A stretch of DNA of 36,723 nt from Archangiaceae bacterium. GTDB taxonomy: Bacteria > Myxococcota > Myxococcia > Myxococcales > Myxococcaceae. The notes below the pieces were generated by a model. The model was not told the DNA's origin, searched no databases, and worked only from the letters and a program-made list of their open reading frames with translations. Both the position numbers and the translations under genes were made by a program. The stretch spans positions 1-36,723 of the forward strand of contig JAACJQ010000275.1 in the NCBI GenBank assembly GCA_016879935.1, given 5' to 3'. Each line of letters starts with the position of its first letter. The stretch's first letter is position 1. Positions 2 through 23,347 of the stretch are shown piece by piece.

Positions 2-2605
2 TCGTTCAACTCGGGCTACGGCGTGTACGGCGAGTGCAACGGCTCGGGCTCCATCGCCGTCACCAACTCCATCGTCTCGCACAACGGTTCGCCTGGCCTC
101 GGCCGCTCGGGCTGCTCCTTCGTCGCGTCGGTCAGCAGCGCGTACAACAACGTGTGGGGCAACAGCTCGACCGGCCTGCAGATGCCGCCGACCGGAGCCG
201 ACGTCTCGTCGAACAACTTCGCCAGCGTCTCGCAGGGCACGGGCTCGCAGTCGGCGAACCCGCTCTTCACCGCGCAGGGAGCGACGCCGCGTGATCTCAC
301 CCTCACCTCGACGTCTCCGAGCATCGGCGCCGGTCGCGTGGGTGCCGTCGCCGGTGGAGCGCCGATCGATCAGGGCGCGTTCCCCTTCACGGTCGGGCCG
401 ATCATGACGGTCGTCATCTTCCCCACGAGCCCCTCGATCACCGCTGGCGCGACGCGCGCGTTCGCCGCGCAGGCCCTCGACGCCAACAACAACCCCGTGC
501 CCACCACCTTCACGTGGAGCGCCGTGCCCAGCGCCGGCACCATCACCGCGGCAGGGCTGCTCACGGCGAGCTGCACGCCGGGCGCGATCACGAACGGGGT
601 CTCGGCGACTGCTCCCAACGGCGTGGTCGGCCGCACCAACGTCACCATCACGCTCGGCACGCCGAACAACGTGGCCATCACGCCGTCGTCACCGACCGTG
701 CCCAGCCAGGGAACGCAGCAGTTCACCGCTGCGGTGCGTGACAGCTGCAACAACGCGCTGCCCGGCGCGACGATCACCTGGAGCGCCGCACCGCAGGCGG
801 GCTCCATCACCGGCTCCGGGCTCTTCACCGCCGGCTGCACGCGCGGCACGTACATGAACGCGATCACCGCCACTGCGGGAGCCATCTCGGGCTCGATTCC
901 CGTCACGGTTGGCCCCGGCGAGGTCGCAGCCGTCAGCATCAGCCCCGCGAACCCCACGGTCACCGCCGGCATGACGCAGCTCTTCGCCGCGACCGCGGCC
1001 GACGGGTGTGGCAACACGGTCATGGGCGCGCCGATCACCTGGTCGACGACCGCGCCCGGCTCGACGATCGCCAGCACAGGCATCTTCACGGCCGGCCAGT
1101 CGAACGGCACCTTCCCCAACAGCGTCACTGCGGCCACTCCGGGCGGAGCGACGACGGTCAGCTCGAGCACGGGCGTCACCATCACTGGAGGTTCGGGAGG
1201 CGCGGTCGCGACGATCACCATCTCGCCGACGTCGGCCTCCATCGGGCCAGGCGCGACGCAACAGTTCACGGCGACGGCACTCAACGCAACGGGCCAGCCG
1301 GTCGCGGGTGCGCCCATCACCTGGAGCGTGGTGAACGGAGGCGGCACCATTTCGGCGAGCGGCCTCTTCACGGCGGGCAACACCGCCGGAGCGTTCGCGA
1401 ACACGGTTCGCGCGGCTTCGGGCAGCGCCTCGGCCACGGTCTCGGTCACGGTCAACGCAGGGCCGGTCGCCACCGTGAGCGTGACGCCGACGATGGCCAC
1501 CCTCGCGCCCGGAGGCATGACGACGTTCACGGCGCAGGCGCGCGACGCCTTCAACAACGCGGTGCCCTCGACCTTCACGTGGACGGCGAGCGCGGCCGCC
1601 GGCACCGTCACGCAGGGCGGCGCCTTCACGGCGAGCTCGACGGTGGGCACCTACGCTGCGGCCGTGACGGCGACGGTGGGCGCGGTCTCGGGCAGCGCCT
1701 CGATCACGATTCAGGCCGGCGCGCTCGCCAGCCTCACCATCACGCCGCCGCTGGCGATGATTCAGGCTGGCGGCACGGCTGGCTTCTCGGTCGTCGGGCG
1801 CGACTCGATGGGCTCGGTCGTCTCGGTCACCCCGACGTGGAGCGTGGTGAGCGGCGGCGGCACCATCAACGCCTCGGGCATCTTCCAGGCGGGCACGGCC
1901 GCTGGCACGTTCGCCAACACGGTACGGGCCGAAGCGAACGGGCTGACGGCCTTCGCCAGCGTGCAGGTCAGCCCCGGCCCGGTCCTCACCGTCAGCGTCG
2001 CTCCCGGCACGGCGACCGTCACCTCAGGCGGCACGCAACAGTTCACCGCGCAGGCCCGTGACGCGTTCAACAACGCCGTGCCCGTCGGCTTCACGTGGGC
2101 TGCACAGCCCGCCGCGGGAACCATCAACGCTGGCGGCCTCTTCACGGCGAGCACGACGGCGGGCGCCTTCCCCAACGCGATCACCGCGACGGCCGGGGGC
2201 GTGAACGGCTTTGCGAGCGTGACGGTGACGGGCGGCGCTGGTGGAGGCTCGGCTGGCGGGGGCTCCGCAGGTGGCTCGGCTGGTGGAGGCATGGCGGGCG
2301 GTGGCTCGGCCGGCGGAACGGCTGGTGGCTCGAGCGCGGGTGGCGCTGCAGCTGGAGGGGACGCGGGCGGCTCGGCTGGTGGAGACGCGGGTGGTGGAGT
2401 CGCCGGTGGTGGCGCGGCGGGCGGCACCTCGTCGTTCGGAGGTGGAGGGCCCCTGCTGGGCGGCGGCTCGGCGGCGGGCGGAACGGCTGGCGGTGGGGCG
2501 ACGGCACCGGGCTCGGGCTGCGGGTGCTCGACCGGCAACGCCTTCGCCCCGTTCGCGATGCTGGGCCTGCTCCTCGTGGCCCGTCGTCGCCGCGCGAGCC
2601 GCTGA
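2..2605 (+). CDS. Ig-like repeat surface protein with MYXO-CTERM tail (5' end outside window)
   Basis: The reading frame is open from base 2, so the start lies upstream of the window; the GTG at 23 is only the first start-like codon. The first ~120 visible residues resemble the end of a right-handed parallel beta-helix (NPLF, then a DLTLTSTSPSIGAG/DQGAF pattern typical of Pel/NosD-like domains). Seven Ig-like repeats of about 85 residues follow, each with a TWS core, a SGLFTAG-like strand and a SASVTV-like end. Next comes a ~90-residue Gly/Ala/Ser linker, then GCGC, a hydrophobic segment (FAPFAMLGLLLVA) and RRRRASR. That tail matches MYXO-CTERM sorting signals, which in myxobacteria direct cell-surface anchoring. 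Export and adhesive or structural roles are inferred; no catalytic residues are visible in the part present. Repeats 1-3 contain extra Cys residues that the later repeats lack. Confidence 0.85.
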   Translation, partial: SFNSGYGVYGECNGSGSIAVTNSIVSHNGSPGLGRSGCSFVASVSSAYNNVWGNSSTGLQMPPTGADVSSNNFASVSQGTGSQSANPLFTAQGATPRDLTLTSTSPSIGAGRVGAVAGGAPIDQGAFPFTVGPIMTVVIFPTSPSITAGATRAFAAQALDANNNPVPTTFTWSAVPSAGTITAAGLLTASCTPGAITNGVSATAPNGVVGRTNVTITLGTPNNVAITPSSPTVPSQGTQQFTAAVRDSCNNALPGATITWSAAPQAGSITGSGLFTAGCTRGTYMNAITATAGAISGSIPVTVGPGEVAAVSISPANPTVTAGMTQLFAATAADGCGNTVMGAPITWSTTAPGSTIASTGIFTAGQSNGTFPNSVTAATPGGATTVSSSTGVTITGGSGGAVATITISPTSASIGPGATQQFTATALNATGQPVAGAPITWSVVNGGGTISASGLFTAGNTAGAFANTVRAASGSASATVSVTVNAGPVATVSVTPTMATLAPGGMTTFTAQARDAFNNAVPSTFTWTASAAAGTVTQGGAFTASSTVGTYAAAVTATVGAVSGSASITIQAGALASLTITPPLAMIQAGGTAGFSVVGRDSMGSVVSVTPTWSVVSGGGTINASGIFQAGTAAGTFANTVRAEANGLTAFASVQVSPGPVLTVSVAPGTATVTSGGTQQFTAQARDAFNNAVPVGFTWAAQPAAGTINAGGLFTASTTAGAFPNAITATAGGVNGFASVTVTGGAGGGSAGGGSAGGSAGGGMAGGGSAGGTAGGSSAGGAAAGGDAGGSAGGDAGGGVAGGGAAGGTSSFGGGGPLLGGGSAAGGTAGGGATAPGSGCGCSTGNAFAPFAMLGLLLVARRRRASR
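407..2236 (+). repeat. Seven tandem Ig-like coding repeats
   Basis: About 258-bp coding units inside the surface protein, each encoding one ~85-residue Ig-like (Big/BACON-like) domain. Repeats 5 and 7 share the stretch QARDAFNNAVP. Repeats 4 and 6 share WSVV(N/S)GGGTI and FANTVRA, so the units alternate in type, as expected after duplication of a two-domain block. Confidence 0.75.
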
Positions 2606-2687: not shown

Positions 2688-4232
2688 ATGTTCGCGACCA
2701 GCACCCCGGCCACCGCCGAAGGCTTCTTCGATCGCACCACCGAGCTGGCCCGCATCGACGACGCGCTGACGAAGCTCACCCGGGGCGCACCGAAGTGGCT
2801 CTGCCTCGTGGGCCCCCGCAAGGTCGGCAAGACCAGCCTCTTGCGAGAGGTCGAGCGGCGCTCGAGGCGACGCGGCACGCCGCAGCCTTCGTTCGTCGTC
2901 GTCGACGTGCTCGAGACGATGCCCGCCTCGACCGAGGTCGTGCGCGCGGTGGCCATTCAGTCGGTCGACGCCCTGCTCTCGAACGACGCGGGGCAGGCCC
3001 TCGGGCCCCTGGCGACGATGCCCGAGGCGTGGCGTGCAGGGCTCATCGCGAGCCCACGCTTCGTCACCCTGCCCGCCCCGCTTCGAGCCCTGCTGCTCGA
3101 GCTGCCAGGCATGGCCGACGATCAACGCTCGCTCGCGGCGATGCTCTCGGTGCCCGAGCAGCTGGCCGAGGCCCTCTCGACGTGGGTGGTGGTCGCCATC
3201 GACGAGTTCCAGGAGCTGGCCACCATGGCGCGCGGTGGGCCCGATCTCATGGCCCTGCTTCGGAGCACCTGGCAGCGCCACCGTCGCACGGCGTACGTCG
3301 TCTCGGGTTCGGCGCGCAGCACCCTGCTCGAGCTCGCCACCTCGCAGCACTCCCCCTTCTTCCAGCACTTCGAGGTCATCGAGGTCGGCGCGTTCGACGA
3401 AGCGTTCGCCGTGAAGCTGCTCGTCGCCGCCAGCACCGACGCGGTCGCGCCCATCACCGAGGCGCTGGCGCGAAAGCTCTACCGGGCGCTCGGGGGCAAC
3501 CCGTTCTACCTGCAGGTGGTGGGCGAAGCCGTCGCCCAGGAGCGCGGCCGTGCCGACGCGAAGCTGCGCAACGCCCTGCAGCAGACACTCTTCAGCGACA
3601 CCGGCCGACTCTCGCTCTACTTCACCAACGAGTTCACGCGCCTCGTGGGCCGCGCAACGACCCTGGCGGCGACGCTCAACGCCCTCGCGACGGGGCCCCT
3701 CACCGTGACCCAGGTGGCCACGGCCATCGACTGCGCGACGGCAGCGGCCGTGGGCTACCTCGAACGCCTGGGAGACGCGGTTCGCCGCAGAGACGATGGC
3801 CGCTGGGAGCTCGCCGACGCCGTCTTCGGGTTGTGGCTCGAGTGGCGACGGCCTGGCGGAGCGGTGGTGCCCATGCGCCTCGTCGGTGACGAGGCCGAGC
3901 TTGCGGTGGCCCAACGGCTGGCCCAGCTGGGCTTCGAGTTCCTCTACCTCTCACGCGGCTCGCGGGGGCCGTTCGATCTGCTCGCCTCACGCAGCGCCCG
4001 AATGCTGGCGGTGCAGGTGAAACGAAAGCCGCTGCCGCTGCGCTTCACGAAGGCCGAGTGGCAGCGAATGCAGGGCGAAGCGAAGCGCTACGGATGGAAG
4101 TGGGTCGTCGGGCAGGTGGAGCGCAGCGGGCAGGTTCGACTGCTCGACCCGAAGAAGGCGCGGCAGGCCGACGGCGTGACGCTCACCGAGCGCGCGGCCA
4201 TCGACCACCCGCTCGCCTGGTTCGACGAGTGA
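2688..4232 (+). CDS. Archaeal-type AAA ATPase fused to PD-(D/E)XK (Hjc-like) nuclease domain
   Basis: 514 residues. The N-terminal half is a STAND-like 'archaeal ATPase' module (PF01637 type): Walker A GPRKVGKT at 42-49 and Walker B VVVAIDEFQEL with D172/E173. A helical/winged-helix middle follows (about 290-390; TQVATAIDCATAAAVGYLERLG). The C-terminal ~115 residues look like a PD-(D/E)XK nuclease: GDEAE at 400-404, GPFDLL with D430, and QVKRK with Q443 and K445, so the middle acidic residue of the usual D-ExK is Q. The layout (E, D, QxK, then a helix with W/GWKWVVG) recalls archaeal Hjc resolvases more than the usual DUF234 tail. Start ATG is supported by GGAG at 2679-2682. No signal or membrane segment. 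A DNA-processing or defence role is inferred. The gene stands alone between a surface-protein gene and a convergent cassette. Confidence 0.8.
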   Translation: MFATSTPATAEGFFDRTTELARIDDALTKLTRGAPKWLCLVGPRKVGKTSLLREVERRSRRRGTPQPSFVVVDVLETMPASTEVVRAVAIQSVDALLSNDAGQALGPLATMPEAWRAGLIASPRFVTLPAPLRALLLELPGMADDQRSLAAMLSVPEQLAEALSTWVVVAIDEFQELATMARGGPDLMALLRSTWQRHRRTAYVVSGSARSTLLELATSQHSPFFQHFEVIEVGAFDEAFAVKLLVAASTDAVAPITEALARKLYRALGGNPFYLQVVGEAVAQERGRADAKLRNALQQTLFSDTGRLSLYFTNEFTRLVGRATTLAATLNALATGPLTVTQVATAIDCATAAAVGYLERLGDAVRRRDDGRWELADAVFGLWLEWRRPGGAVVPMRLVGDEAELAVAQRLAQLGFEFLYLSRGSRGPFDLLASRSARMLAVQVKRKPLPLRFTKAEWQRMQGEAKRYGWKWVVGQVERSGQVRLLDPKKARQADGVTLTERAAIDHPLAWFDE

Positions 4233-4340: not shown

Positions 4341-7300
4341 TCACTGCTGGCGTCGGGAGCGGCCGCTGAGCCGGTCCTCGAGCGCCCGCACGAGCTGAAT
4401 CGCCTCGTTGATCTGCTGCCAGACGACGACGGCCTTCATCGCACCGTCGGCGTCGACCTGAAGCACGCTGCGCGCGGCGGCGGCGATGGGTGACAGCGTG
4501 TCGGTGAGCGTCGAGAGCTGCCGGCGCACCTCCTCGGGAACGGGCGCTTCTTTCGCCGCCCTCGGCGCCGGCTGCTGCGCAGCGAGCTTCTCGAGAATCG
4601 GCGCGAGATCGGCTTGTGGCGCGACCGGCCGCTCGAGGATCAGGCGGGTGAGCTCGGTCAGCTGCGAGAGCACTGGCGTGAGATCGATCTGCTGCGCTTG
4701 AGCGCGCGCGGCCATGGCTTCGGCGACGTGCGCCAGCTGCCCCAACGCAGGTGACAGATCGACGGGCGGCCTCGCGTTGAGCTCGGTGAGCTTCTCGAGC
4801 ATCGGCGTCAGATCGGTCGCAGGCGCCGTCTTCGCCGCGGCCAGCACCGCGTCTCTGAGCGCGTCGAGCTTCGGGCCCAGATCGCTCTGCCGCGGCTTGT
4901 TCGCGGTCGCAGCGATCGTCTTCGTCAGCGCCTCGAGGTGCGGGGCGAGCGGTGCCTCGGCTGGACGCTTCGCCACGTCGACGGCCGCCTCGCGAATGCG
5001 AGCCAGCTCTTCGCCAAGCGCCGCGAGCGTCCCCGTCACGCGCACGACCGGGTCGTCGTCCTTCCCGCCCTGGGTCTGCACGCGCTTGAAGCCACGCTTG
5101 ATCTCGTCCCACCGCGCCTTCTGCTCGGCGGTCTGCCGCTTTCGCAGCTCGGCCAGCTTGAGCAGGTTCTGCTCGGCCGACGTCGTCAGCGTCTGCGACT
5201 CACCGGCGTAGTGCGCATCGATGAGCCCCTCGAGCTCGTCGTTCGTCATCGCCGAGACGATCTTCTCGGCGAGCTTGTTCATGTTGCGGTAGCTGCCCTG
5301 CAGCTTGAACGGCGGCTCGGTGCGGTACTGATCGCTCTGCGAAGCCGAGGCGATGTACTCCTGGTTCACGCGGAGCAGCACGCGCTGCGCGAAGAAGAGC
5401 CGCTTGAGCACCTCGACGATCTCGGTGAGCTCGGCCGCCGAATAGCCATGCTCGAGTTCGGTGGTGGCCAGCGACTCACCCTGAGCCATCTTGAACAGCC
5501 GGGCAATGTCGGCTGGCGGGCGGGTGGTGAGCGGCGCGGTGACGGTGTTCGCCGTGAGCGCGTTCTCGAGGTAGCTCAGCGCGAACAGCTCGTCCTTGCC
5601 CGAGAGAATGTCGCCGAGGTTGTACGTGTCGGCGCGGTTCGCGAGCATGTCGGGAATTTTGAAGACCTCGCCCGACTCCGTGTACGGGTTGCCGGCCATC
5701 ACCACGCAGAACCGTTTGCCGCGCAGGTCGTACGTGCGGGTGACGCCGTTCCACACGCCCTCGATCTTCCGCTGCGCGTCACAGAGCGAGATGAACTTCT
5801 GCAGCAGCTCCGGGTTCGTGTGCTGAATGTCGTCGAGGTACAGCATCACGTTGTTGCCGAGCTCGAACGAGAAGTTCATGCGCTCGACCTCGAGCTTCGC
5901 GGTGCTGTTCGGCGCGTCGGCGGGGTCGACGCTGACCACCTCGTGCCCGAGCGCCGGGCCGTTCACCTTCACGAAGGTGAGCCCGAGCTTGCTGGCGACG
6001 TACTCCATGAGCGTCGTCTTGCCGTAGCCAGGCGGCGAGACGAGCAAGAGCAGGCCGTTGCGATCGGTGCGCTTGTTCTCACCTGCGGTGCCGAGCTGCT
6101 TGGCGAGGTTGGCGCCGATGAGCGGCAGGTACACCTCGTCGATGAGCCGGTTGCGCACGAAGCTCGAGAGCACCTTGGGCTTGAGCTCGTCGAGGCGCAG
6201 CCGCTTGCGCTCGTGCTCGGTGATCTCGCGAACCCTGGAGCGATACGCCTGGTACGCGGGCAGACGCTCCTCGACGAACTTCGAGAGTCGGCGCTCGAAC
6301 TCGTCGAGCCGCAGCGAGAGCTTCTGCCCCTGAATGCGTGGGTGGTTCCCGAGCAGCCCCGTGAGCTCGGTCGACAGCAACGCCGACGACACTTCGCGTG
6401 ACAGCTGGCGTTCTTCGACAGCGAAGAGCGCCGCGGCCTCGAGCACCGGGCCCGTCATGGCGACGCTGGTGCCTGCCCTCGAGACGAAGGCCTCGAGCCA
6501 GGCGCGGGTGAGCTTGAAGCGCTCGGCCGGATCGTCGACGGCGCGAAGATCGTCTTCGAAGGCGCGGCGCTGCCCTGCCACTTCGATCGACGACAGCAGC
6601 GACTCACGCAGCGTCTGTGCGTCCTGGCTGAGCACGAAGCGCTGCGTCTCCTTCGCCAGCTCTTCGGCGAGGTAGCGGCCGGCGAGCAGCACGTCTCCCG
6701 ACGACGCCTCGAGCGCCGCAACCTTCGCCCACTCGGTGATGCGCACCGAGAGATCGCTCGCCAGGCGGTCGAACTCCGGTGCATGCCCATAGTGCTTGCG
6801 CAGGCGCCCCAGGCTCTGCGCGCGACGAACGATCACCTTCTTCGTCGGCTCGTCCTTCTGCGCGGCCCACGTCAACGTCGCGAGCACCCGCGGCCACGCG
6901 TCGTAGCGGAGCAAACCCGCCGACTCGTGCAGCAGCAACAACGCCTCGAGAATCTTCGCGGCGTCGACGTCGTGAACGCCACGCTCGTAGCCCTCGTCAT
7001 AGCGGCTCTGCGCGACGTCCTTCGTGATCGGCAGCAGCCCCTTGCCCGCGCGCAGCGTCTCGTGAAAGCGCGCGAACGACTGCCCGTCTCGCCCCGACTC
7101 GCCGGCTTTGAAGAGCGTGAACGCGAGAAACTCGGCGCGGCTCACCTCGGGCGACTCGCTGGGCAGGGTCTGGTCCCAGTACGCCTTCGCGGCGTCGATG
7201 GCCGGGTCGGCGAGCCGCTGGAAGTAGTCGGAGCCGGTGAGGTGCAGGAACAGCCCGTCGTCCTTCGGGAGCACGGTGGCTTCGAGCGCCTGCGTGTTGA

Positions 7301-9911
7301 CGTTGAACCGATGCGGGCCGAATCGAACGACTGCGGCCCCGCCCTCGTAGAGGTCTTTGCGATCGCGGAGTGACCGCAACGCGTCCTGGCGAGCCGTCTT
7401 GAGCCGCGACTCCAGCTCGTCGGCCTTCACCGGGTCTTTCAGCTCGATCAGCTGCGCGATGAACTGGCGGAGCTTCTGTGCGGTCGGATCAGAGGCAAAG
7501 TACGCGTTGAGCTCGTCGTCGGTGTTGAAGCTGTTCGCCCGACGCGCGATGCCCTGAAGCACGCGATCGGCCGCGCCGAAGAGGTTGGCCGCCTTGCGCT
7601 GGCGCTCGTCGATGAGCACCTGCCGTCGGCGCGCGAAGGCGTCGAACAGCTCTTCCCGTCGCTGCGCGAGCTCGCCTGCGAACTCGTCGACGTCACTGAA
7701 CCGGCTCTCGAGTTCTTCGAGCTGCACCGACAGCTTCGCGAGCTGCTCGTCGACCTTCTCGGGCGTGTCCGAGAGCGAGAGCGCGCTGTCGATGCTCTGG
7801 GCGAACAGTTTGAACTGCGAGGTGAACTCGGCGCGGGTCTCGAGGCCGAGCAGCTCCTTGCGGCGGCCCTGCACCGTGGCCCGCACGCGGTTCAGCTTCG
7901 AGAACACCTCACTGATGTCTTCGAGAATCTTCGCCTTCTGCGTGGCGTCGCCCGACGACAGCCCGCCGACGACTTCGCCGAGCACCGTGAGCCCCGTGCC
8001 GAGCCGCTCGACCTCTTCGACCTGCCCCTTGAGCTCGGGCGTCTTGGTCGCCTTCGCGATCTCGGCGTCGAGGCGCGCGACGCTCTCGTGGAGCGGCTGG
8101 AACGCGGCGGGCGTGAGCAGGAACTCCACCGTCCACGCGCTCACCTGCTCGAACGACTTGATGACCTCGGCCTCGAGCCCGTCGACGCGCGCGAGATCCA
8201 TGTAGCGGATCTCCTTCAGCGTGATGAGCACGCCGCGCTGCTTGCGCAACGAGGCAAGCGCCGTCATCAACGAATCGGTCGACCGCAGATCGTCCTGCGT
8301 CAGTCCGCGCAGCAACGTCTCCTGCTGCTCGACGGCCTTCGCCAGCTCTTCGCTGGCGCGCTTCTGCATCGCCAGCACCTTCTCGAACTCGTCGACGATC
8401 AGCTCGGCCGATGCCTTGAGTTCGTGCACCTTCGCGAGGAGCTCGATCTCCTTCTGGCCGAGCCAGTGGAACGCATCGACGACGCGCTGGCAGGTCGAGA
8501 TGAGGCCTTCGTACGTGCGCCGGGTCGGCTTCTCGGCCTCGGCCATGCGCTTGATGGTGAGCACCTCGGAGATGCCCCGCACCAGCTCGGCGTTCCCCAG
8601 CTTGCCCAGCGCAGACTGCGGCGCGGGCTGCGCGGCTGCGAACTCGGCCGACACGAACGGCGTCTGCCACACCTGCATCGGGTGCACGCGGGTCGGCTCG
8701 TTCGACGTCGAGCGGAACACCACCATCTGCCCGTCGCCGAAGATCGAATAGCCGTGGCAGTGAATCGGAGAGGCCACCTCTTTGCGCACGAGGTTGTACG
8801 GCAACAGCACGTACCGCCCGCCATCGCGTTCGTAGAAGACATACAGCACGTCTTCACCGTTGGGCGACTTGACGGCGCGCTTGAACTCGAGGCCGGTGAC
8901 GTCGGCGTCGAACAGCTTCACTTCACCGGTCTGCAGCGCGTACCCGCCGGGAAAGATGACGCCTTGCTCTTCAGGCAGCTGCACGCACGAGACGCCGATG
9001 GCGTCGACGCGAGCCACGGTGCTCGTGCGCGTGTTGAACACGAGGTAGCGGTACTTCTCTTCGCGAAACGGCTTCACCTTCAGCAGAATCAGCGCGCCCA
9101 GCTTCGCCCAGTGGAACTCGGCGTCGTCGAGTGACTGCGTCGGCTCGTCGACGGGCTCGGCGTAGATGCCCTGGCCAGTCTCGGTGTTGTTCTCGACCTT
9201 CACCGTGAGATCGCCACCGACCGTCTCGATGAAGACCTCGTCGAGCACGTTCACGTGCGGGTGCCGGCCCGAGACGAAGTTGTCGCGCGTCGCCTGCGTC
9301 CACGAGAAGTCGTGCGAGGGCGCCTTCGTCACGTCACCTTCGCCGCGGTTGTCGACGTAGGTGACGACCCCCGAGACATCGACCGAGAAGCGCAGCACCT
9401 TCACGTCGCGCTCGGTCTGGCCGGTGCGAAACACCGCGAGCAGCCGGGACTCGGTCTTGCGGAGCAGGTCGAGGCGCGCGTCCTTGTAGAACTTGAAGAG
9501 CTCTTCGAAGTCCTTCACGAACCGCTTGTCCTGCAGGAAGCCGCCCGCGTCGGTCGCAGGCAGCAGCGAGAAGTCGAACCCGCCCTCGGCCGTGCGCTCG
9601 AACTTGTGCAGCGAAAAGACGTCGCCGACGGCGCGCTCCTGCTTGAGGCCCATGAAGACGTTGAAGCCGACGAGGAGCGACTTGCCGACCGGCACGATGT
9701 TGCGCGGCACGCAGTTGTGCTCGGTGCGCACGCGGTCGGTGCCGATGACGGTGAGTTCCTGGCCGCCGAACTCCTTGCGGCGCCGCTCGTTCAGCGCGTC
9801 GACCTTCGCGCCGAGCTCCTTCGCGTGGGCGATGAGCCGCCCACGAATGACTTCATAGCTACCGCCCTCGAGCGTGGACTCGGTGGCGGGCGCCTTCGCG
9901 TCGGTGGCCAT
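4341..9911 (-). CDS. Giant DUF3686/AAA 'DNA repair' ATPase
   Basis: 1856 residues, last gene of the yqiJ-yqiK-ATPase cassette; its ATG is 21 nt after the flotillin stop, with GAGAGG about 11 nt upstream. The N-terminal ~470 residues have the look of DUF3686 (beta-rich, e.g. TEHNCVPRNIVPVG). Long coiled coils follow (about 480-830) and further helical regions. The single AAA module has Walker A PPGYGKTT near 1291, Walker B VMLYLDDIQH near 1357 and a sensor-like VVMAGNPYTESGEVFKIP. The tail carries six DLxPxLxxL repeats (about 1654-1776). Proteins of this family are named 'DNA repair ATPase' in databases, but to my knowledge no activity has been demonstrated. The position behind a flotillin suggests a membrane-tethered ATPase; MoxR-like remodelling is an alternative. 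No transmembrane segment is seen. Confidence 0.85.
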   Translation of the reverse strand: MATDAKAPATESTLEGGSYEVIRGRLIAHAKELGAKVDALNERRRKEFGGQELTVIGTDRVRTEHNCVPRNIVPVGKSLLVGFNVFMGLKQERAVGDVFSLHKFERTAEGGFDFSLLPATDAGGFLQDKRFVKDFEELFKFYKDARLDLLRKTESRLLAVFRTGQTERDVKVLRFSVDVSGVVTYVDNRGEGDVTKAPSHDFSWTQATRDNFVSGRHPHVNVLDEVFIETVGGDLTVKVENNTETGQGIYAEPVDEPTQSLDDAEFHWAKLGALILLKVKPFREEKYRYLVFNTRTSTVARVDAIGVSCVQLPEEQGVIFPGGYALQTGEVKLFDADVTGLEFKRAVKSPNGEDVLYVFYERDGGRYVLLPYNLVRKEVASPIHCHGYSIFGDGQMVVFRSTSNEPTRVHPMQVWQTPFVSAEFAAAQPAPQSALGKLGNAELVRGISEVLTIKRMAEAEKPTRRTYEGLISTCQRVVDAFHWLGQKEIELLAKVHELKASAELIVDEFEKVLAMQKRASEELAKAVEQQETLLRGLTQDDLRSTDSLMTALASLRKQRGVLITLKEIRYMDLARVDGLEAEVIKSFEQVSAWTVEFLLTPAAFQPLHESVARLDAEIAKATKTPELKGQVEEVERLGTGLTVLGEVVGGLSSGDATQKAKILEDISEVFSKLNRVRATVQGRRKELLGLETRAEFTSQFKLFAQSIDSALSLSDTPEKVDEQLAKLSVQLEELESRFSDVDEFAGELAQRREELFDAFARRRQVLIDERQRKAANLFGAADRVLQGIARRANSFNTDDELNAYFASDPTAQKLRQFIAQLIELKDPVKADELESRLKTARQDALRSLRDRKDLYEGGAAVVRFGPHRFNVNTQALEATVLPKDDGLFLHLTGSDYFQRLADPAIDAAKAYWDQTLPSESPEVSRAEFLAFTLFKAGESGRDGQSFARFHETLRAGKGLLPITKDVAQSRYDEGYERGVHDVDAAKILEALLLLHESAGLLRYDAWPRVLATLTWAAQKDEPTKKVIVRRAQSLGRLRKHYGHAPEFDRLASDLSVRITEWAKVAALEASSGDVLLAGRYLAEELAKETQRFVLSQDAQTLRESLLSSIEVAGQRRAFEDDLRAVDDPAERFKLTRAWLEAFVSRAGTSVAMTGPVLEAAALFAVEERQLSREVSSALLSTELTGLLGNHPRIQGQKLSLRLDEFERRLSKFVEERLPAYQAYRSRVREITEHERKRLRLDELKPKVLSSFVRNRLIDEVYLPLIGANLAKQLGTAGENKRTDRNGLLLLVSPPGYGKTTLMEYVASKLGLTFVKVNGPALGHEVVSVDPADAPNSTAKLEVERMNFSFELGNNVMLYLDDIQHTNPELLQKFISLCDAQRKIEGVWNGVTRTYDLRGKRFCVVMAGNPYTESGEVFKIPDMLANRADTYNLGDILSGKDELFALSYLENALTANTVTAPLTTRPPADIARLFKMAQGESLATTELEHGYSAAELTEIVEVLKRLFFAQRVLLRVNQEYIASASQSDQYRTEPPFKLQGSYRNMNKLAEKIVSAMTNDELEGLIDAHYAGESQTLTTSAEQNLLKLAELRKRQTAEQKARWDEIKRGFKRVQTQGGKDDDPVVRVTGTLAALGEELARIREAAVDVAKRPAEAPLAPHLEALTKTIAATANKPRQSDLGPKLDALRDAVLAAAKTAPATDLTPMLEKLTELNARPPVDLSPALGQLAHVAEAMAARAQAQQIDLTPVLSQLTELTRLILERPVAPQADLAPILEKLAAQQPAPRAAKEAPVPEEVRRQLSTLTDTLSPIAAAARSVLQVDADGAMKAVVVWQQINEAIQLVRALEDRLSGRSRRQQ
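4584..4952 (-). repeat. Six DLxPxLxxL coding repeats in the ATPase tail
   Basis: Residues about 1654-1776 contain PLAPHLEAL, DLGPKLDAL, DLTPMLEKL, DLSPALGQL, DLTPVLSQL and DLAPILEKL, spaced about 20-27 residues apart. The pattern (acid-Leu, helix-capping Pro, then a Leu heptad-like helix) suggests a short helical-repeat rod or a multivalent docking tail. Confidence 0.7.
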
Positions 9912-9932
9912 GCGGTTCGATGCCTCTCACCG

Positions 9933-12041
9933 TCACTTCGACGGCTTGCCCTCGTCGCGCACCAGCCGGCTCATCAGCGCGGCCGAGGCGAGGTTCTGCA
10001 CGTCCTGGCTCGCACCCGGCTTCGAGAGAATCGCCTTCAGATCGTCGGGCAACGAGCGACCGCCCTCGAGGTACTCCTTGAGCAGCACCTTGAGCTGCTC
10101 GGAGTTGTTCACCGCGCCGTCGACGGACTGGCCCAGGGTGACGGCCTTGACGAACTGGTCGAAGAACTGACCGTCGCCGCCGACGATGTTGATCTTCGCG
10201 TTCGACATGGCCTGCGCGAGCACCTGCGCCTGCGAGGCGGCGATGTCCTTCTTGACGTGCAGCGCCTCGAGCTCGACGGCCTTGTCCTTCTCGAGCCGCA
10301 GGCGGAACTCTTCGTGCTCGCGGGTCACGCCTTCGAGCTGCTTCATGGCGGCGGCCTTCTCGGTGAGACCGCGCGCCTCGGCGAGCAGCTTCTCCTGCAC
10401 GCCCAGCGCCTCGGCCTGAACCTTCGCCTTCACCGACTCGGCCTCGGCGATACCGCGACGCTGCACGACGTCGGCTTCGCCCTGCTCGACCGCGATGCGA
10501 GCCATGCCCTTCTTCTCGTCGCCTTCGGCCTCGGCGAGCATCTTTGCCTTGAGCGCTCCGGCGTTGGCGGCACCCTGCTTCTCGATGGCCTGGGCTTCGG
10601 CTTCCTTCACCCGAACGAGCGCCAGCCCTCGCTTCTCTTCGGCGATGGCCTGAGCCTCGAGCACACGCGCCTTGGCGAGCCCGTCGGCAGCCTGCTCGGC
10701 CTGTACACCTTCGGCCATGCGCATCTTCGCGCGCGCTTCCTTGTCGGCGGCCTCGAGGTCGGCGTCGGCCTGAATGAGGCGCGTCTTCGCGGTGTGCTTG
10801 GCCACCTCTTCGTTCGCCTCGGCGGCCTTCACCTGCGCCACGACGCCCTGCTGCGCCTTACCCTCGGCCTCGATGACCAGCGCGTCCTTGTTGCGCTGCG
10901 CCTCGGCGACCTTGCGGAGCGCCTTGATGGCCTCTTCTTCGGCGGCGACCTTCTTCTCGACGGCGATGCGCGTCGACACCACGTCGGCGATGGCCTTGCG
11001 CTCCTGCTCGAGGGCCTTCTCCTTGGTGATGCGCTGCAGCTCGACCTCACGCTCACGCGCGATGGCCTCGAGGTCGCGATCCTTCTGCACGCGCTCGGTC
11101 TCGATGCCGACGACGCGCTCACGGTTCTTCTGCGCGACCTCGACCTGGCGCGACTTGTTCTGCTCGTTGATGAGAATCATCTCTTCGGCCGAGATGCGCG
11201 CGTTCTCCGACTTGGTGCGCTCTTCCTGCTGCACCTTCTGGGTCTCGGCGAGCTCGCGCGCCTGAATCGTCTCGATCTCTCGCTTCTGCTTGGCGGCGGC
11301 TTCGGCGCGCTGGCGCTCGAGGGCGAAGACTGCCTCGTCGGCTTCGACGTTCTGCTTGGTGATCTGCTTGCGTTCGGTCTGGCGGAAGTCGTTGGTGAGC
11401 ACGTTCTGCTGCGTCGTCAGCTCGGTGATCTTCCGAATGCCGGCCGCGTCGAGAATGTTCTCCTTGTCGAGGAGATCGAGCGGCGTCTGCTCGAGGTAGT
11501 CGATGGCCGCGTCTTCGAGGTTGTAGCCGTTGAGGTCCTTGCCGATGACCTGAACGATCTGATCCTTGAAGGCCTCGCGCTCCTTGTAGAGGTCTTCGAA
11601 GTTGAGCCGCTTGCCGACGGTCTTGAGCGCTTCGGAGAACTTGGCCTCGAAGAGCTCCTGGAGCGTGCGCTCTTCACTGGCGCGCGCGCAGCCGACCGAC
11701 TGGGCGACCTTGAGCACGTCTTCGACGGTCTTGTTCACGCGCACGAAGAAGCTGACCTTGATGTCGGCGCGAATGTTGTCGGCGCAGATCAGCCCTTCCT
11801 TGCCGCGGCGATCGATCTCGATGGTCTTCAGCGAGATGTCCATCACCTCGGCGCGGTTGATGATGGGCAGCACGACCGAGCCCGTGAAGGCGACCTTGGG
11901 CTCCTTGCCCATGGTGTTGACGATGAGCACCTGGCCCTGGCTCACCTGCCGGTAGAAGCGGCTGATGATCACGCCGATGAACAACACCAAGACGAACCCG
12001 GCGACGACGACGCCGCCAACGATCCACGCAGTCTCTGACAT
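9933..12041 (-). CDS. yqiK: Flotillin / band 7 (SPFH) protein, YqiK-like
   Basis: 702 residues. One N-terminal membrane helix (about 5-27, TAWIVGGVVVAGFVLVLFIGV), then an SPFH/band 7 domain (about 30-235, starting VSQGQVLIVNTMGKEPKVAFTG). A very long Glu/Ala/Lys/Arg-rich coiled coil (about 240-590) and a flotillin-type C-terminus follow. Family members oligomerise into membrane rings or microdomain scaffolds. The length is greater than E. coli YqiK (about 550), because of the longer coiled coil. Strong Shine-Dalgarno GGGGAGGA sits 7-8 nt before the ATG. Downstream of a YqiJ-like OB-fold gene and 21 nt upstream of the giant ATPase, so probably the scaffold of that cassette. The symbol reflects family resemblance, not proven orthology. 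Confidence 0.88.
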   Translation of the reverse strand: MSETAWIVGGVVVAGFVLVLFIGVIISRFYRQVSQGQVLIVNTMGKEPKVAFTGSVVLPIINRAEVMDISLKTIEIDRRGKEGLICADNIRADIKVSFFVRVNKTVEDVLKVAQSVGCARASEERTLQELFEAKFSEALKTVGKRLNFEDLYKEREAFKDQIVQVIGKDLNGYNLEDAAIDYLEQTPLDLLDKENILDAAGIRKITELTTQQNVLTNDFRQTERKQITKQNVEADEAVFALERQRAEAAAKQKREIETIQARELAETQKVQQEERTKSENARISAEEMILINEQNKSRQVEVAQKNRERVVGIETERVQKDRDLEAIAREREVELQRITKEKALEQERKAIADVVSTRIAVEKKVAAEEEAIKALRKVAEAQRNKDALVIEAEGKAQQGVVAQVKAAEANEEVAKHTAKTRLIQADADLEAADKEARAKMRMAEGVQAEQAADGLAKARVLEAQAIAEEKRGLALVRVKEAEAQAIEKQGAANAGALKAKMLAEAEGDEKKGMARIAVEQGEADVVQRRGIAEAESVKAKVQAEALGVQEKLLAEARGLTEKAAAMKQLEGVTREHEEFRLRLEKDKAVELEALHVKKDIAASQAQVLAQAMSNAKINIVGGDGQFFDQFVKAVTLGQSVDGAVNNSEQLKVLLKEYLEGGRSLPDDLKAILSKPGASQDVQNLASAALMSRLVRDEGKPSK

Positions 12042-12135
12042 GTTCCCATCCTCCCCAGAAAAAGCTGGGCGACTCTATGACGCGCCTCGCTCCGGTTGCT
12101 GGAGTTTCGGCGCTGGTTGCGTAAGCACACGGCCG

Positions 12136-12197
12136 CGCTGATCAACCATTTCCCTCGACGGCAAGCCCTTGATCGGTCGTTTTGCCGTTGATCAGCG
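12136..12197 (-). promoter_or_regulatory. Nested inverted repeat between yqiJ-like and yqiK-like genes
   Basis: CGCTGATCAAC (12136-12146) and GTTGATCAGCG (12187-12197) form a perfect 11-bp inverted repeat. Inside it, GGCAA/TTGCC (12160-12164 and 12182-12186) can form a second stem, and a third TTGATC occurs at 12169-12174. It lies in the 166-bp spacer within the presumed operon. It may be an RNA element setting the YqiJ:YqiK ratio, an internal promoter operator, or an mRNA stability hairpin. No T run. Confidence 0.45.
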
Positions 12198-12207
12198 GTG
12201 ACAGGCT

Positions 12208-13059
12208 TCAGCTTCCGCGCGTGCGCATGCGCGAGGAGATCACCTGACCGACTCGTGCAGGGTCGTTGAGCATCTCGACCTCCTGCGGCTCGAGCCAGTC
12301 GATGGGCTCGATCTCCCAGGTCTCGGTGGCGTCGTCGAAGCCGATGATCAGGGCCTTGTCGCCCTTCTTGAGCTGGTTCGCCTTCTCGCAGGCGACGTGA
12401 AGGTTGAGCCCCGCGCCGCCGTCGCTCACCGTGGCCGTGCCGAACTTTCCGTCGACGCGGCCCGAGGTGATCTCACAGACCTTGCCGATGAAGTCGTGGC
12501 GGCGCTGGGGGCGTTCAGAGGTGAACGCCTTCACGAGCGGGCGAATCGCGATCGAGCTGGCGATCATCGCGAGGAACATCGACGCCACCAGCACGCCAGA
12601 CCTCGCGGCCAGGCCCCCGTCCGCGCCGAGCCACGACGAGCCGAACATCGTGAAGACCCACGAGAAGAAGACGAGGAAGCTGCCCGAGATCGTCGAGGGC
12701 ACCTTGCCGAAGCCCAGCACCGACAAGATGCCGTCGCCCGCAGGAGGAGCGTCGGCACTCTTGAGGGTCTCGGCCGCCGCCTTCGCGCCGCCAGTCACAG
12801 CGTCGCCCGCGGCCTTCACGCCTCCGACGACTGCGTCGCCCGCCGCCTTCACGCCACCCGTGACGGCTTCTCCCGCGCCCTTCATCGCCCCCGTGAGCGC
12901 GTCACCAGCCGCCTTCGCGCCACCTTCGAGCGCGCCGTCACCGTCGAACGCCACGACGCCGAGCAGCACGAACACCCAGTACAGAAACGCGATGCCGAGG
13001 AGCACGGTGAAGGGCACCGCGGGGAACGTGAGCAGCGTGCGAAGGAAGCCTTCCATCAC
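12208..13059 (-). CDS. yqiJ: YqiJ-like OB-fold (NfeD-type) membrane protein with 11-residue repeats
   Basis: 283 residues. A membrane helix at about 13-37 (FPAVPFTVLLGIAFLYWVFV) is followed by five exact 11-residue units (46-100, consensus GGvKAAGDAVT). Two more membrane helices are at about 122-141 and 153-172, then a C-terminal OB-fold-like beta domain (about 188-255; GKVCEITSGRVDGKFGTATV, KKGDKALIIGFD). E. coli YqiJ (about 209 residues) has the same membrane-plus-OB plan without the repeats; such NfeD-like proteins partner flotillins. First gene of the cassette. Two adjacent ATG codons (13059, 13056) are possible and the Shine-Dalgarno is weak (GGGGGCTCG). The repeat segment predicts an amphipathic membrane-surface helix. 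Confidence 0.82.
   Translation of the reverse strand: MMEGFLRTLLTFPAVPFTVLLGIAFLYWVFVLLGVVAFDGDGALEGGAKAAGDALTGAMKGAGEAVTGGVKAAGDAVVGGVKAAGDAVTGGAKAAAETLKSADAPPAGDGILSVLGFGKVPSTISGSFLVFFSWVFTMFGSSWLGADGGLAARSGVLVASMFLAMIASSIAIRPLVKAFTSERPQRRHDFIGKVCEITSGRVDGKFGTATVSDGGAGLNLHVACEKANQLKKGDKALIIGFDDATETWEIEPIDWLEPQEVEMLNDPARVGQVISSRMRTRGS
12760..12924 (-). repeat. Five 33-bp coding repeats (11-residue units)
   Basis: Residues 46-100 read GGAKAAGDALT, GAMKGAGEAVT, GGVKAAGDAVV, GGVKAAGDAVT, GGAKAAAETLK: five uninterrupted 11-mers. Period 11 with alternating Lys, Ala and Asp/Glu is the 11/3 amphipathic pattern known from LEA group 3 proteins, apolipoproteins and synucleins. Confidence 0.85.
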
Positions 13060-13152: not shown

Positions 13153-13704
13153 TCACGCGTCGAGCCGGCGCACGGCGACGTCGACATCGCCGCCTTCGCG
13201 GCGAACGGTCACCGACCAGGGACTGCAGCACACGGGGCAGTCTTCGACGTATTGCGCGCCGTCGGCCTCTTCCATCGCGACCGTCACCATCACCGGCTCG
13301 TTGCACGACGGGCACGAGAACGCGTGATCGAGCGAGAGACTGCCGGGCCGCGACAGAAACGCCTCGGGCCAGCGAGGGAGCAACGGCTCCTGCGCCACCA
13401 TCTGCCCCCACGTGTCGATCACACAGCTCTTCAGCGAGTCGACGTCGAGGCCGTCGAAGTCGTCCGAGACGGAACACAGTCGTTCGAGCGCACGCGCGAG
13501 CAGTCGACGCGCGCCACCGCCACGCCCGTTCTCGTGCTGCTGCAGCGCCGCCGTCCACAACACGAAGACCTGCAGCACCCGCTTCTCGTCGGAGCGGCAG
13601 ACCCGCCAGCCCTCTTCGAAACGTTCATTCGCTTCGTGGAACCGTCGGGCCTCGAAGAGCCTTCGGCCACCTTCGACGCTCAGCTGGAATCCAGGGCTCG
13701 CCAC
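13153..13704 (-). CDS. DUF309-like helical protein with C-terminal CPXCG zinc domain
   Basis: 183 residues, GTG start (no in-frame ATG upstream; Shine-Dalgarno weak). The N-terminal half has a DUF309-like pattern (FEARRFHEANERFEEGWR at 17-34, then LWTAALQQHENG). The C-terminal ~60 residues match the CPXCG family: CPSC at 131-134 and YVEDCPVCC at 152-160 (C131, C134, C156, C159/C160). These Cys probably bind a zinc ion. CPXCG proteins are usually short stand-alone proteins of about 60-70 residues, so the fusion is notable. The gene is 93 bp upstream of the YqiJ-like gene on the same strand and may be cotranscribed with it. Function unknown; a metal-binding or nucleic-acid-associated role is inferred only. 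Confidence 0.72.
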   Translation of the reverse strand: MASPGFQLSVEGGRRLFEARRFHEANERFEEGWRVCRSDEKRVLQVFVLWTAALQQHENGRGGGARRLLARALERLCSVSDDFDGLDVDSLKSCVIDTWGQMVAQEPLLPRWPEAFLSRPGSLSLDHAFSCPSCNEPVMVTVAMEEADGAQYVEDCPVCCSPWSVTVRREGGDVDVAVRRLDA

Positions 13705-18289: not shown

Positions 18290-19767
<1,478 letters not shown>

Positions 19768-19771
<4 letters not shown>

Positions 19772-21375
19772 GGGGTTGCCCCTCCAGGCTGAACAGGAAT
19801 CATGACGGTGAACGTGGTGCCCGAGCCGACCGACGACTCGACGATGAAGTGGCCGCCGTGGTCTTCGACGATGCGGTACGCGATCGCGAGGCCCAGGCCG
19901 GTGCCTTCACCCGGCGGCTTGGTGGTGAAGTGCGGCTCGAAGATGCGCGAGAGGTGCTCTTCGGGAATGCCGCAGCCCGTGTCGGTCACCTTGAAGAAGC
20001 AGTGCGCGTCGACGAGGCCCGTCTCGATGGTGATGGTGCCCTCGCCCTGCGGCAGCGCCTGCATGCCGTTCTGCAGCAGGTTGAGCGCCACCTGGCCGAG
20101 CTGCGCAGGGTCGCCGTAGACGCCTGGCAAGCCCGCCGCGAGCTTCATGTCGAGCACGAGCCGCGGGTACTTCTTGGCCTGCGCGCGGAAGAGCACGACC
20201 GTGTCTTCGACACACTTCGACAGATCGAACGAGCGGCGATCTTCGACCTTCGAGCGGCGGCTGAACTTCAGCAGGCTCTCGACGATGCGCTTGCACCGCA
20301 GCGCGCTCTCTTCGATCAGCTGCAACGACTCCATGTCGGAAGGCGTGCGCGAACCGTCACGCTGCATCAGCTGCGAGAAGGCCAGAATGCCGCCGAGCGG
20401 GTTGTTGATCTCGTGCGCGACGCCGCCCGCGAGGTTGCCGATCGCGATCATCTTCTCGCTCTCGACCATGCGCTTGGTGAGGTTGCGCTCGTCGGTGACG
20501 TCCCGGTAGCTGCACACCGCCACCGGCTCGTCCTCCATCGGGAACAGCTGGCCGACGTAGATACGGCCCTCGCGCTGCATCTCGACCGTCGCGGGCTCGG
20601 TGAGGTTCATGCCGATCGGGCAGTTGGTGCACGGCGTGTCGCGCCCGAAGAGAAACTGGTGGCACTTCGGCTTCTCGCCGATGGCGACGATCTCGCGGCC
20701 TGCCACCTGCGCCGCCGCCCGGTTGCCGCGCCGAATCGCCAGATCGCTCAGCTGCACGACGAGCAGCGGGTGGTCGATGGTGTCGAAGGTGAGCTCCCAG
20801 TCGCGCTTGGCCTTCGAGAGCATGACGGTGCGCTGGGCGACCCGCTCCTCGAGGTCGGCGTTCAGAATGCGCAGCTCCTGGTTCTGGTTCTGCGTCAGGC
20901 GAAACAGGCGCTCGTTCTCGGCGAACAGGGCGTGCTGCTCGAACGCGCTCTTCACCGTCAGCACGAGCTGCGCGTCGTTCCACGGCTTCGAGATGAAGCG
21001 GAACACCTCGGAGCGGTTGATGGCCTCTTCGATCGCCTGCTGATCGGCCTGGCCCGTCAGCATGATGCGCTGCGTTCGGGGCGACAGCTCTTTGACGCGC
21101 GCGAGAAACTCGACGCCGTTCAAACCAGGCATGCGGAAGTCGCTGAGCACGACCTCGGGCTGGAACTGCTCGAACATCGCGAGCGCCGCCTCGGCATCAG
21201 GCGCCGTCTCGACGTGCCAGTCGCCCCGGCGCAGCACGCGCTTGAGCGACCGCAGAATGTTCTCCTCGTCGTCGACGAGCAGCAGTCGACCCGGCCGGCC
21301 AGGCATCGTTTCGGGCGTCATGGCGATAGCGGGCTCCACGCGGGTCATCCGTGAGCAAACGGACTGCCAACCCAT
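19768..21375 (-). CDS. Histidine kinase with N-terminal receiver and PAS domain
   Basis: 535 residues. Domain order: receiver (about 29-145, phospho-acceptor D79 in LSDFRMPG, ISKPW Lys), short coiled coil (LTQNQNQELRILNADLEERV), PAS domain (about 180-300), HisKA (H near 321 in AGGVAHEINNPLGG) and HATPase (NLLQNG N box, DTGCGIP G1, EGTGLGLAIAYRI G2). The PAS domain contains KCHQF...TPCTNCPIGM, a Cys pattern seen in several delta-proteobacterial PAS sensors that may bind metal, heme or redox signals. No membrane helix, so the sensor is cytoplasmic. The ATG at 21375 follows an in-frame stop by one codon; ATGs at 21348 and 21321 are alternatives and all Shine-Dalgarno matches are weak. Overlaps the response regulator gene by 4 bp. 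Confidence 0.93.
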
Positions 21376-21492
21376 GAGTCACAGCAACCCCATGAACTTT
21401 CAGGGCATGTACGACAGCTTCAGCACGGCTTCCGAGGTCAACGGCGACCCGGGCCTGTGTTTCAGGTCGATTTCGACCCCACCTGGAGGAGC

Positions 21493-22449
21493 TTACCCGC
21501 GGGCGACGTAGAGCGACGACTGGAAGAGGCTGATCTTGGTCCGGCCCTCGCGCTTGGAGCGGTACAGGGCCTCATCGGCGGTCTTGAGGAGCTGCTCGGC
21601 CGTGGTGACCCCGCGACCCGGGAAACCAGATACGCCAAAGCTGCCGGTGACCCGGATGGCTCCGTCGACTCCGGTGCGGGTCGCCTTGAGCGCCTGACTC
21701 ATGCGCTCGGCGACGGTGAGCGCGCCGGCGAGATGCGTCTTGGGCAGCACCACCGCGAACTCTTCACCACCGTAACGCGCGATGAAGTCGGTCTCGCGCA
21801 CTGCGCCCTTCAGCGCCTTCGCCACCCCGCGGAGCACCTCGTCACCGACCTGGTGGCCGTGGGTGTCGTTCACTGCCTTGAAGTGATCGATGTCCATCAG
21901 AATGAGGGCCATCGGGTCGTCGTAGCGCTGCGCGCGGCGGAACTCTTCGCGCAGGCGCTCCTGAAACGCGCGGTGGTTGGCCACCTGGGTGAGGCCGTCG
22001 GTCGTCGAGAGGGCGAGGAGCTCGTCTCGCTGGCCCAGCAACACCGAGAGCCGAGACGCGAGTTCGAAGCGGCGCTCGAGCCGCGCCTGCAGCTCGTCGA
22101 ACGAGATCGACTCGGGCACCACGTCATCGGCGCCGAGCCGGAGCGCCTCGATGGCCTTCGCTGGCGAAGCTGCGGTGGTGAGCACGAGAATCGGCAGCGG
22201 CCGCTCGTCGCCGCGCAGGTGCTGCAACACGGCCAACCCGCTCTCGCCCGACAGCTCGAGTTCGACGATGGCAGCGGAGAACACCGTGTCCATCGTCAGC
22301 TGAATCGCCTCGATGGCGGTGCTGGCGTGCGAGCAGACGAAGCCGCGTGCCGTCAACGCGTGCCGGCGGGCCTGCGCCGACGACGTGTCGCGATCGACCA
22401 ACAGCACCGTTCGGGGCGCTTCGTCCATGGGCCCGGCGCTCTTAGTCAT
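21493..22449 (-). CDS. Diguanylate cyclase with degenerate receiver domain
   Basis: 318 residues from the ATG at 22449 (Shine-Dalgarno GGGGGGGA directly upstream); the longer open frame to 23604 overlaps two plus-strand genes and is rejected. The receiver-like domain (about 12-130) keeps D19/D21, but the phospho-acceptor position is E63 (IVELELSG) and the usual Lys is replaced by E113. The GGDEF domain (about 145-312) has the signature GGEEF at 227-231 and an I-site RETD at 218-221 for product inhibition. Predicted to make c-di-GMP from two GTP in the cytoplasm. Located 117 bp downstream of nothing else on its strand except the kinase pair, which follows it; possible but unproven operon. The receiver changes suggest phosphorylation-independent control. 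Confidence 0.92.
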   Translation of the reverse strand: MTKSAGPMDEAPRTVLLVDRDTSSAQARRHALTARGFVCSHASTAIEAIQLTMDTVFSAAIVELELSGESGLAVLQHLRGDERPLPILVLTTAASPAKAIEALRLGADDVVPESISFDELQARLERRFELASRLSVLLGQRDELLALSTTDGLTQVANHRAFQERLREEFRRAQRYDDPMALILMDIDHFKAVNDTHGHQVGDEVLRGVAKALKGAVRETDFIARYGGEEFAVVLPKTHLAGALTVAERMSQALKATRTGVDGAIRVTGSFGVSGFPGRGVTTAEQLLKTADEALYRSKREGRTKISLFQSSLYVARG

Positions 22450-22479
22450 TCCCCCCCGTGAGAACAGCCCCCTGTGGTC

Positions 22480-22499
22480 GTTTTGAGCGGCCTGAAAAC
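22480..22499. promoter_or_regulatory. GTTTT-N10-AAAAC dyad in divergent promoter region
   Basis: GTTTT (22480-22484) and AAAAC (22495-22499) with an inner AG/CT match form a 20-bp imperfect dyad between the diguanylate cyclase and glycosyltransferase genes. It may be an operator for either promoter; no promoter boxes are confidently seen. Confidence 0.3.
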
Positions 22500-22563
22500 C
22501 TGCAGGCGCGATGAAAGGCCTCTGCGGTGGACCAGCCGGCCTCCTCGCGGGTAAAGCGCGCCC

Positions 22564-23346: not shown

Positions 23347-23347
23347 C

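Follow-up and report, generated by a model that had tools for sequence, protein, structure and literature searches.

A conserved cassette of an NfeD-like protein, a flotillin and a giant DUF3686/AAA+ ATPase in Myxococcota as candidate membrane-anchored remodelling machine

The locus and its three gene products

The window, i.e. the whole analysed stretch of 36,723 nucleotides, carries on its minus strand three genes that follow each other in the order of transcription: a gene for an NfeD/YqiJ-like membrane protein (12208-13059), a gene for an SPFH/flotillin protein of 702 amino acids (9933-12041) and a gene for a DUF3686/AAA+ ATPase of 1856 amino acids (4341-9911). Flotillin and ATPase genes are separated by a gap of 21 bp (9912-9932). 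Order, strand, both lengths and the gap had been given in a preliminary description of this DNA, and the open reading frames together with the Pfam matches (Band_7 as well as DUF3686 and AAA) confirm all of them. Promoter and terminator scans of the cassette returned signals at or near chance level.

The first gene was called from a GTG codon (283 amino acids). Judged from conservation in the family alignment and from the ribosome binding site, translation probably starts at the next codon, the ATG at 13056, which yields 282 residues. The product (12208-13056, minus strand) is a putative integral membrane protein with hydrophobic segments at residues ~8-41 and ~148-176 according to hydropathy and a C-terminal OB-type region assigned by homology. 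It has no Pfam match, and the NfeD/YqiJ model (DUF1449) was unmatched by the window protein and ten relatives at an E-value of 1. The profile of its family matches E. coli YqiJ (P 2.8e-7, 93%) and, weakly, the structure of the YuaF OB domain (2k14, E 0.25). Because of these two matches and its constant position ahead of the flotillin gene we consider this protein as a probable relative of NfeD/YqiJ, with a kinship that is apparent at the profile level only.

The second protein (9933-12041, minus strand) is a flotillin of a type specific for this cassette. It shows an N-terminal hydrophobic anchor (residues ~1-31, hydropathy), the SPFH domain (Pfam Band_7/SPFH, E 3.6e-10) and a long Ala/Glu-rich region resembling a coiled coil. 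Its profile matches E. coli YqiK with P 6.7e-31. A search by sequence for solved structures related to this flotillin or to the propeller of the ATPase gave no meaningful match.

Several other genes surround the cassette. Directly upstream of the NfeD-like gene lies a fusion of DUF309 with a CPXCG zinc ribbon (13153-13704, minus strand, Pfam). Of 40 Myxococcota loci only 7 have this gene beside the cassette, all of them from the same genus or a small number of close relatives; it is possibly a local operon member outside the conserved core. Convergent with the cassette is a gene for an ATPase_2/AAA_16 protein whose C-terminal part weakly matches PDDEXK (2688-4232, plus strand); we place it outside the cassette because it occurs beside it in only one of the 40 Myxococcota loci (L045). 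A surface-type protein with Ig-like repeats (Big_2) and a Gly/Ala/Ser-rich linker is encoded at 23-2605 (plus strand), and its C-terminus, consisting of Cys-Gly-Cys, a hydrophobic stretch and an Arg-rich tail, resembles a MYXO-CTERM sorting signal. Genes for a hybrid histidine kinase and for two response regulators, one of the sigma-54 type and one with GGDEF, are clustered at 18290-23604 (minus strand).

Anatomy of the giant ATPase

Pfam divides the 1856-residue protein into DUF3686 (residues 32-482, E 3.1e-200), DUF7902 and AAA; hydropathy predicts no transmembrane segment in it. AlphaFold2 models of its two halves, built from 43 relatives, have mean pLDDT values of 87.9 and 88.0 and show a helix followed by a β-propeller, long helices, a further mixed but mainly helical region and finally the AAA+ domain. 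The propeller (8658-9764, minus strand, residues ~50-418 with strands between 54 and 416, model pLDDT 87.9) makes up most of the DUF3686 domain. Its best realigned matches are WD40 propellers (VIA-align, Z 8-10). As Foldseek with the whole first model returned low TM-scores and long mixed alignments, the assignment of the propeller rests on this realigned list. The long helical or coiled-coil region that includes DUF7902 (model and Pfam) spans 7347-8594 (minus strand, residues ~440-855).

In the model the AAA+ domain extends over residues ~1246-1592 (5136-6176, minus strand). Its fold ranks closest to CbbQ (Z 16.8) and NorQ (16.0), both of the MoxR family, followed by dynein (15) and Rea1 (13.5), with ClpA (13.6) as best non-member shown. 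Thus, by structure comparison only, the domain appears to be nearest to the MoxR/dynein-type clade. Two model strands (593-598 and 601-606 in model numbering, DSSP) are compatible with a pre-sensor-1 hairpin, and strands of a helix-2 insert were not seen in the same assignment. An assignment to a clade by sequence profile was dropped since the alignments cover little beyond the P-loop.

The motifs of a AAA+ domain are complete and show no variation at key positions in the 81 ATPase sequences compared. In the Walker A motif SPPGYGKTT (6012-6038, minus strand, residues 1292-1300) G1295, G1297, K1298 and T1299 are invariant (81/81). The Walker B motif VMLYLDD (5829-5849, minus strand, residues 1355-1361) ends with Asp-Asp (D1360 and D1361, 5829-5834) instead of the usual Asp-Glu, again in 81/81 sequences. 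Equally invariant are the sensor 1 residue N1408 as well as R1426 and R1542, which, judged from their position, are candidates for the arginine finger and the sensor 2 arginine, respectively. After residue 1640, near which the tblastn matches to the ATPase stop, a variable C-terminal tail with DL(T/S)P-L--L-type repeats follows (4344-4994, minus strand); its length ranges from 0 to ~359 residues among relatives.

Conservation of the cassette and its genomic context

When 84,980 species genomes were scanned, 532 loci were obtained and the best 80 of them kept, a selection that favours close relatives. These 80 loci derive from Myxococcota, Actinomycetes, Gamma- and Betaproteobacteria and Planctomycetota. 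Where enough upstream DNA was available (72 of these best 80), the flotillin is present in 71 and the full order of YqiJ-like gene, flotillin and ATPase on one strand in at least 67. A recurrence of this extent means that the arrangement is not due to chance. Among 40 Myxococcota loci, all those on a sufficiently long contig have the three genes in succession on the same strand, with the exception of a single family described below. Plasmid records with the cassette come from Deinococcus, Hymenobacter, Proteus, Vibrio, Halomonas and Streptomyces; in eight plasmid regions the flotillin precedes the ATPase in all eight and the NfeD-like gene is found in seven. None of 14 control genomes, E. coli and B. 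subtilis among them, contains DUF3686.

Co-occurrence was followed in genome samples of Myxococcota, Actinomycetes and Gammaproteobacteria that were not picked by cassette genes. DUF3686 is present in 93 of 195 Myxococcota genomes. Among the 189 that were searched with the flotillin profile, 89 possess both proteins, one only the ATPase and two only the flotillin, and all exceptions are located at contig ends: in G147 the contig stops at the ATPase gene, and the flotillin-only cases are a fragment in G017 and G194. In Actinomycetes ATPase and flotillin occur in the same 45 of 297 genomes (45/45 ATPase genomes with flotillin). There the flotillin lies directly upstream on the same strand for 47 of 47 ATPase copies, and the two genomes with two ATPases also have two flotillins. 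Gammaproteobacteria contain the ATPase in only 4 of 229 genomes, and all four also possess the cassette flotillin. In another genome a cassette-type flotillin reading frame of 402 amino acids occurs with no detected ATPase, and the remaining flotillin matches are weaker, YqiK-like and without ATPase. The pairing is thus near-obligate in these three large taxa, as judged by counts that ignore phylogeny; the same holds for the Fisher tests applied to them, which are descriptive only. Pairwise distances among the ATPases are correlated with those among the flotillins (r 0.91), without species-tree control. A neighbourhood of DUF3686 and flotillin had been mentioned in the preliminary description for some proteobacteria. 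It is real and far stronger than stated there, and a prevalence of DUF3686 genes without flotillin neighbours, named there as one of two refuting outcomes, did not occur.

The exceptional myxococcotal family (genomes G183, G184, G185 and G186; loci L037-L040 and L165-L168) is instructive. The NfeD-flotillin pair and the ATPase are found on different contigs, and both are present in four of four genomes. This means that close linkage cannot explain their co-inheritance there and that co-transcription is not required. Taken together, the pattern of co-occurrence suggests that the ATPase needs the cassette flotillin, whereas other flotillins manage without the ATPase.

In part of the loci the cassette belongs to a larger operon. 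Among the best 80 of the 532 loci, DUF2170/YjfI (24) and PspA (22) are found directly upstream of the NfeD-like gene, often in proteobacteria, and genes for a phospholipase D-like protein (15) and a rhomboid protein (11) lie mostly downstream, often in proteobacteria too. A Hymenobacter plasmid shows the order Tir-PspA-DUF1449-SPFH-ATPase. On plasmid pQBR103 (L156, 1022-14226) ten genes represent a merger of two PspA operon types, including the glutathionylspermidine-synthase type, and encode YjfI, PspA, rhomboid, DUF2491, DUF350, DUF1190, glutathionylspermidine synthase, YqiJ-like protein, SPFH protein and DUF3686 ATPase. The CesT/Tir-PspA dyad is missing from our window, which therefore contains an abbreviated version of the operon. 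In the genome of the window DUF2170 was not found and a single distant PspA-family match lies on another contig (68.9 bits). Outside Proteobacteria and Bacteroidota no conserved client gene was seen.

Proposed function and comparison with known systems

We suggest, with a probability of roughly 60%, that the three genes form one unit, namely a AAA+ machine for remodelling rather than proteolysis that is anchored at the inner membrane through its own flotillin/NfeD scaffold. Co-occurrence, conserved gene order, hydrophobic anchors in the flotillin and the NfeD-like protein only, invariant motifs and the modelled domains all argue for such a unit; its assembly into a complex and its client are part of the proposal. 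The NfeD/YqiJ-like protein and the cassette flotillin would together build an SPFH scaffold at the inner membrane, on its cytoplasmic side, and this scaffold would recruit the soluble giant ATPase. The propeller and the long helices are likely docking or client-binding parts, and the C-terminal MoxR/dynein-type AAA+ domain may assemble into a ring that remodels or disassembles membrane-associated protein complexes with no degradation. In many Proteobacteria and on one Bacteroidota plasmid the client could plausibly be PspA. Scaffolding, recruitment and remodelling are proposed because of precedents for SPFH and AAA+ proteins, i.e. the cages of HflK/C with FtsH and the SPFH-dependent recruitment of PspA to the membrane in B. 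subtilis (PMC8581546). The membrane-anchored ATPase machine of the preliminary description fits the layout of the cassette insofar as the anchors occur in the NfeD-like protein and the flotillin and none in the ATPase with its propeller, helices and motif-complete AAA+ domain. For the envelope stress suggested along with it the backing is confined to operon context, i.e. PspA and the YjfI or CesT/Tir gene in proteobacterial and Bacteroidota versions. More tentatively, and somewhat short of even odds, the cassette may represent a distinct bacterial SPFH-AAA+ class next to HflK/C-FtsH and prohibitin-m-AAA, in which a flotillin/NfeD cage has as its obligatory partner a soluble MoxR/dynein-like ATPase that remodels complexes of the inner membrane without proteolysis.

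The same operon context leads to a more specific scenario, in which the ATPase would act like Vps4 and mainly disassemble flotillin-recruited PspA/ESCRT-III filaments in a phage-shock envelope-stress response. The upstream DUF2170/YjfI and PspA genes in the counts given above, the PspA-containing blocks on the Hymenobacter plasmid and pQBR103, a PspA-family match in nearly all ATPase-bearing Myxococcota genomes and the link to PspA drawn by Ravi et al. 2024 (PMC11237479) all point in this direction. However, no recurrence of PspA was observed in the loci inspected from Myxococcota and Actinomycetes, the genome of the window offers no more than its one distant match and no DUF2170, and the AAA+ fold is nearest to MoxR/dynein and not to classical Vps4-type ATPases, so that we regard this scenario as unlikely for the cassette in general. 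That very fold, with CbbQ and NorQ as top matches, would also be compatible with a maturation chaperone comparable to NorQ/NorD and CbbQ/CbbO that activates a membrane-bound enzyme or inserts its cofactors, the flotillin serving as scaffold. This is less probable still, as neither a VWA-domain partner nor a conserved enzyme gene was identified among the recurring neighbours and function does not follow from fold similarity alone.

Anti-phage defence, also considered in the preliminary description, could be read from the patchy distribution and the carriage on plasmids, but it found no support: PADLOC matches are weak and confined to the P-loop or the coiled coil, a search for phage homologues was negative, recurring neighbours with identified families include no defence families, and the cassette is present in nearly all members of many genera of the window's own family, all of which makes this role quite improbable. 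Least probable of all is a DNA repair ATPase, a name that DUF3686 proteins bear in RefSeq/Pfam from the database description only, since the RuvB-like similarity hardly extends past the P-loop, the genes invariably found beside it encode membrane proteins, MoxR/dynein folds come out ahead in the structure search, and propeller and coiled coil come without a repair domain.

Flotillins are widespread in bacteria. A flotillin subgroup with one dedicated ATPase, paired almost without exception over several phyla, gives a flotillin scaffold a defined activity that can be tested. This pairing moreover suggests that the RefSeq “DNA repair ATPase” proteins should be renamed.

As a genomic prediction, this operon type was already described in the survey of envelope-stress genes by Ravi et al. 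2024 (mSystems, PMC11237479), which reports a band-7/flotillin, a YqiJ/YuaF protein and a β-propeller/coiled-coil AAA+ protein, links to PspA, CesT/Tir and phospholipase D, and widespread PspA-free versions. The window has the same three components, i.e. an SPFH protein with N-terminal transmembrane segment and coiled coil, its YqiJ-like neighbour and a propeller/coiled-coil AAA+ protein. From architecture and gene order, rather than from accessions, we infer that the AAA+ protein of these authors corresponds to DUF3686. This name is not used in their paper, nor was a co-occurrence test seen in it, and our literature search found no papers naming DUF3686 or mentioning a “DNA repair ATPase” together with flotillin. 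What is new here is that ATPase and flotillin co-occur near-obligately, that their genes are unlinked in some genomes, that the ATPase is the RefSeq “DNA repair ATPase” (DUF3686) and that its AAA+ fold is MoxR/dynein-like.

Among characterized systems, E. coli YqiJ-YqiK and B. subtilis YuaF-FloT are NfeD2-SPFH2 pairs (PMC2636767), in which, as in the cassette, the gene of an SPFH2-type flotillin immediately follows an NfeD-like gene. Unlike the cassette, the E. coli locus has no ATPase partner behind this pair. Within the MoxR family (CbbQ, NorQ, RavA) the nearest AAA+ folds are found (Z up to 16.8), but the cassette ATPase is much larger, has an Asp-Asp Walker B motif and negligible sequence similarity to RavA, and has no VWA gene among those recurring neighbours that were identified, a set in which not every neighbour cluster is annotated. 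The HflK/C cages, which hold AAA+ protease hexamers (PMC11260169), and the prohibitin-m-AAA system resemble the cassette in pairing an SPFH scaffold protein with a AAA+ protein, a pairing known here from the genes. In contrast with these systems, the cassette ATPase has neither a predicted transmembrane segment nor a protease domain and instead combines a β-propeller with a MoxR/dynein-like AAA+ fold.
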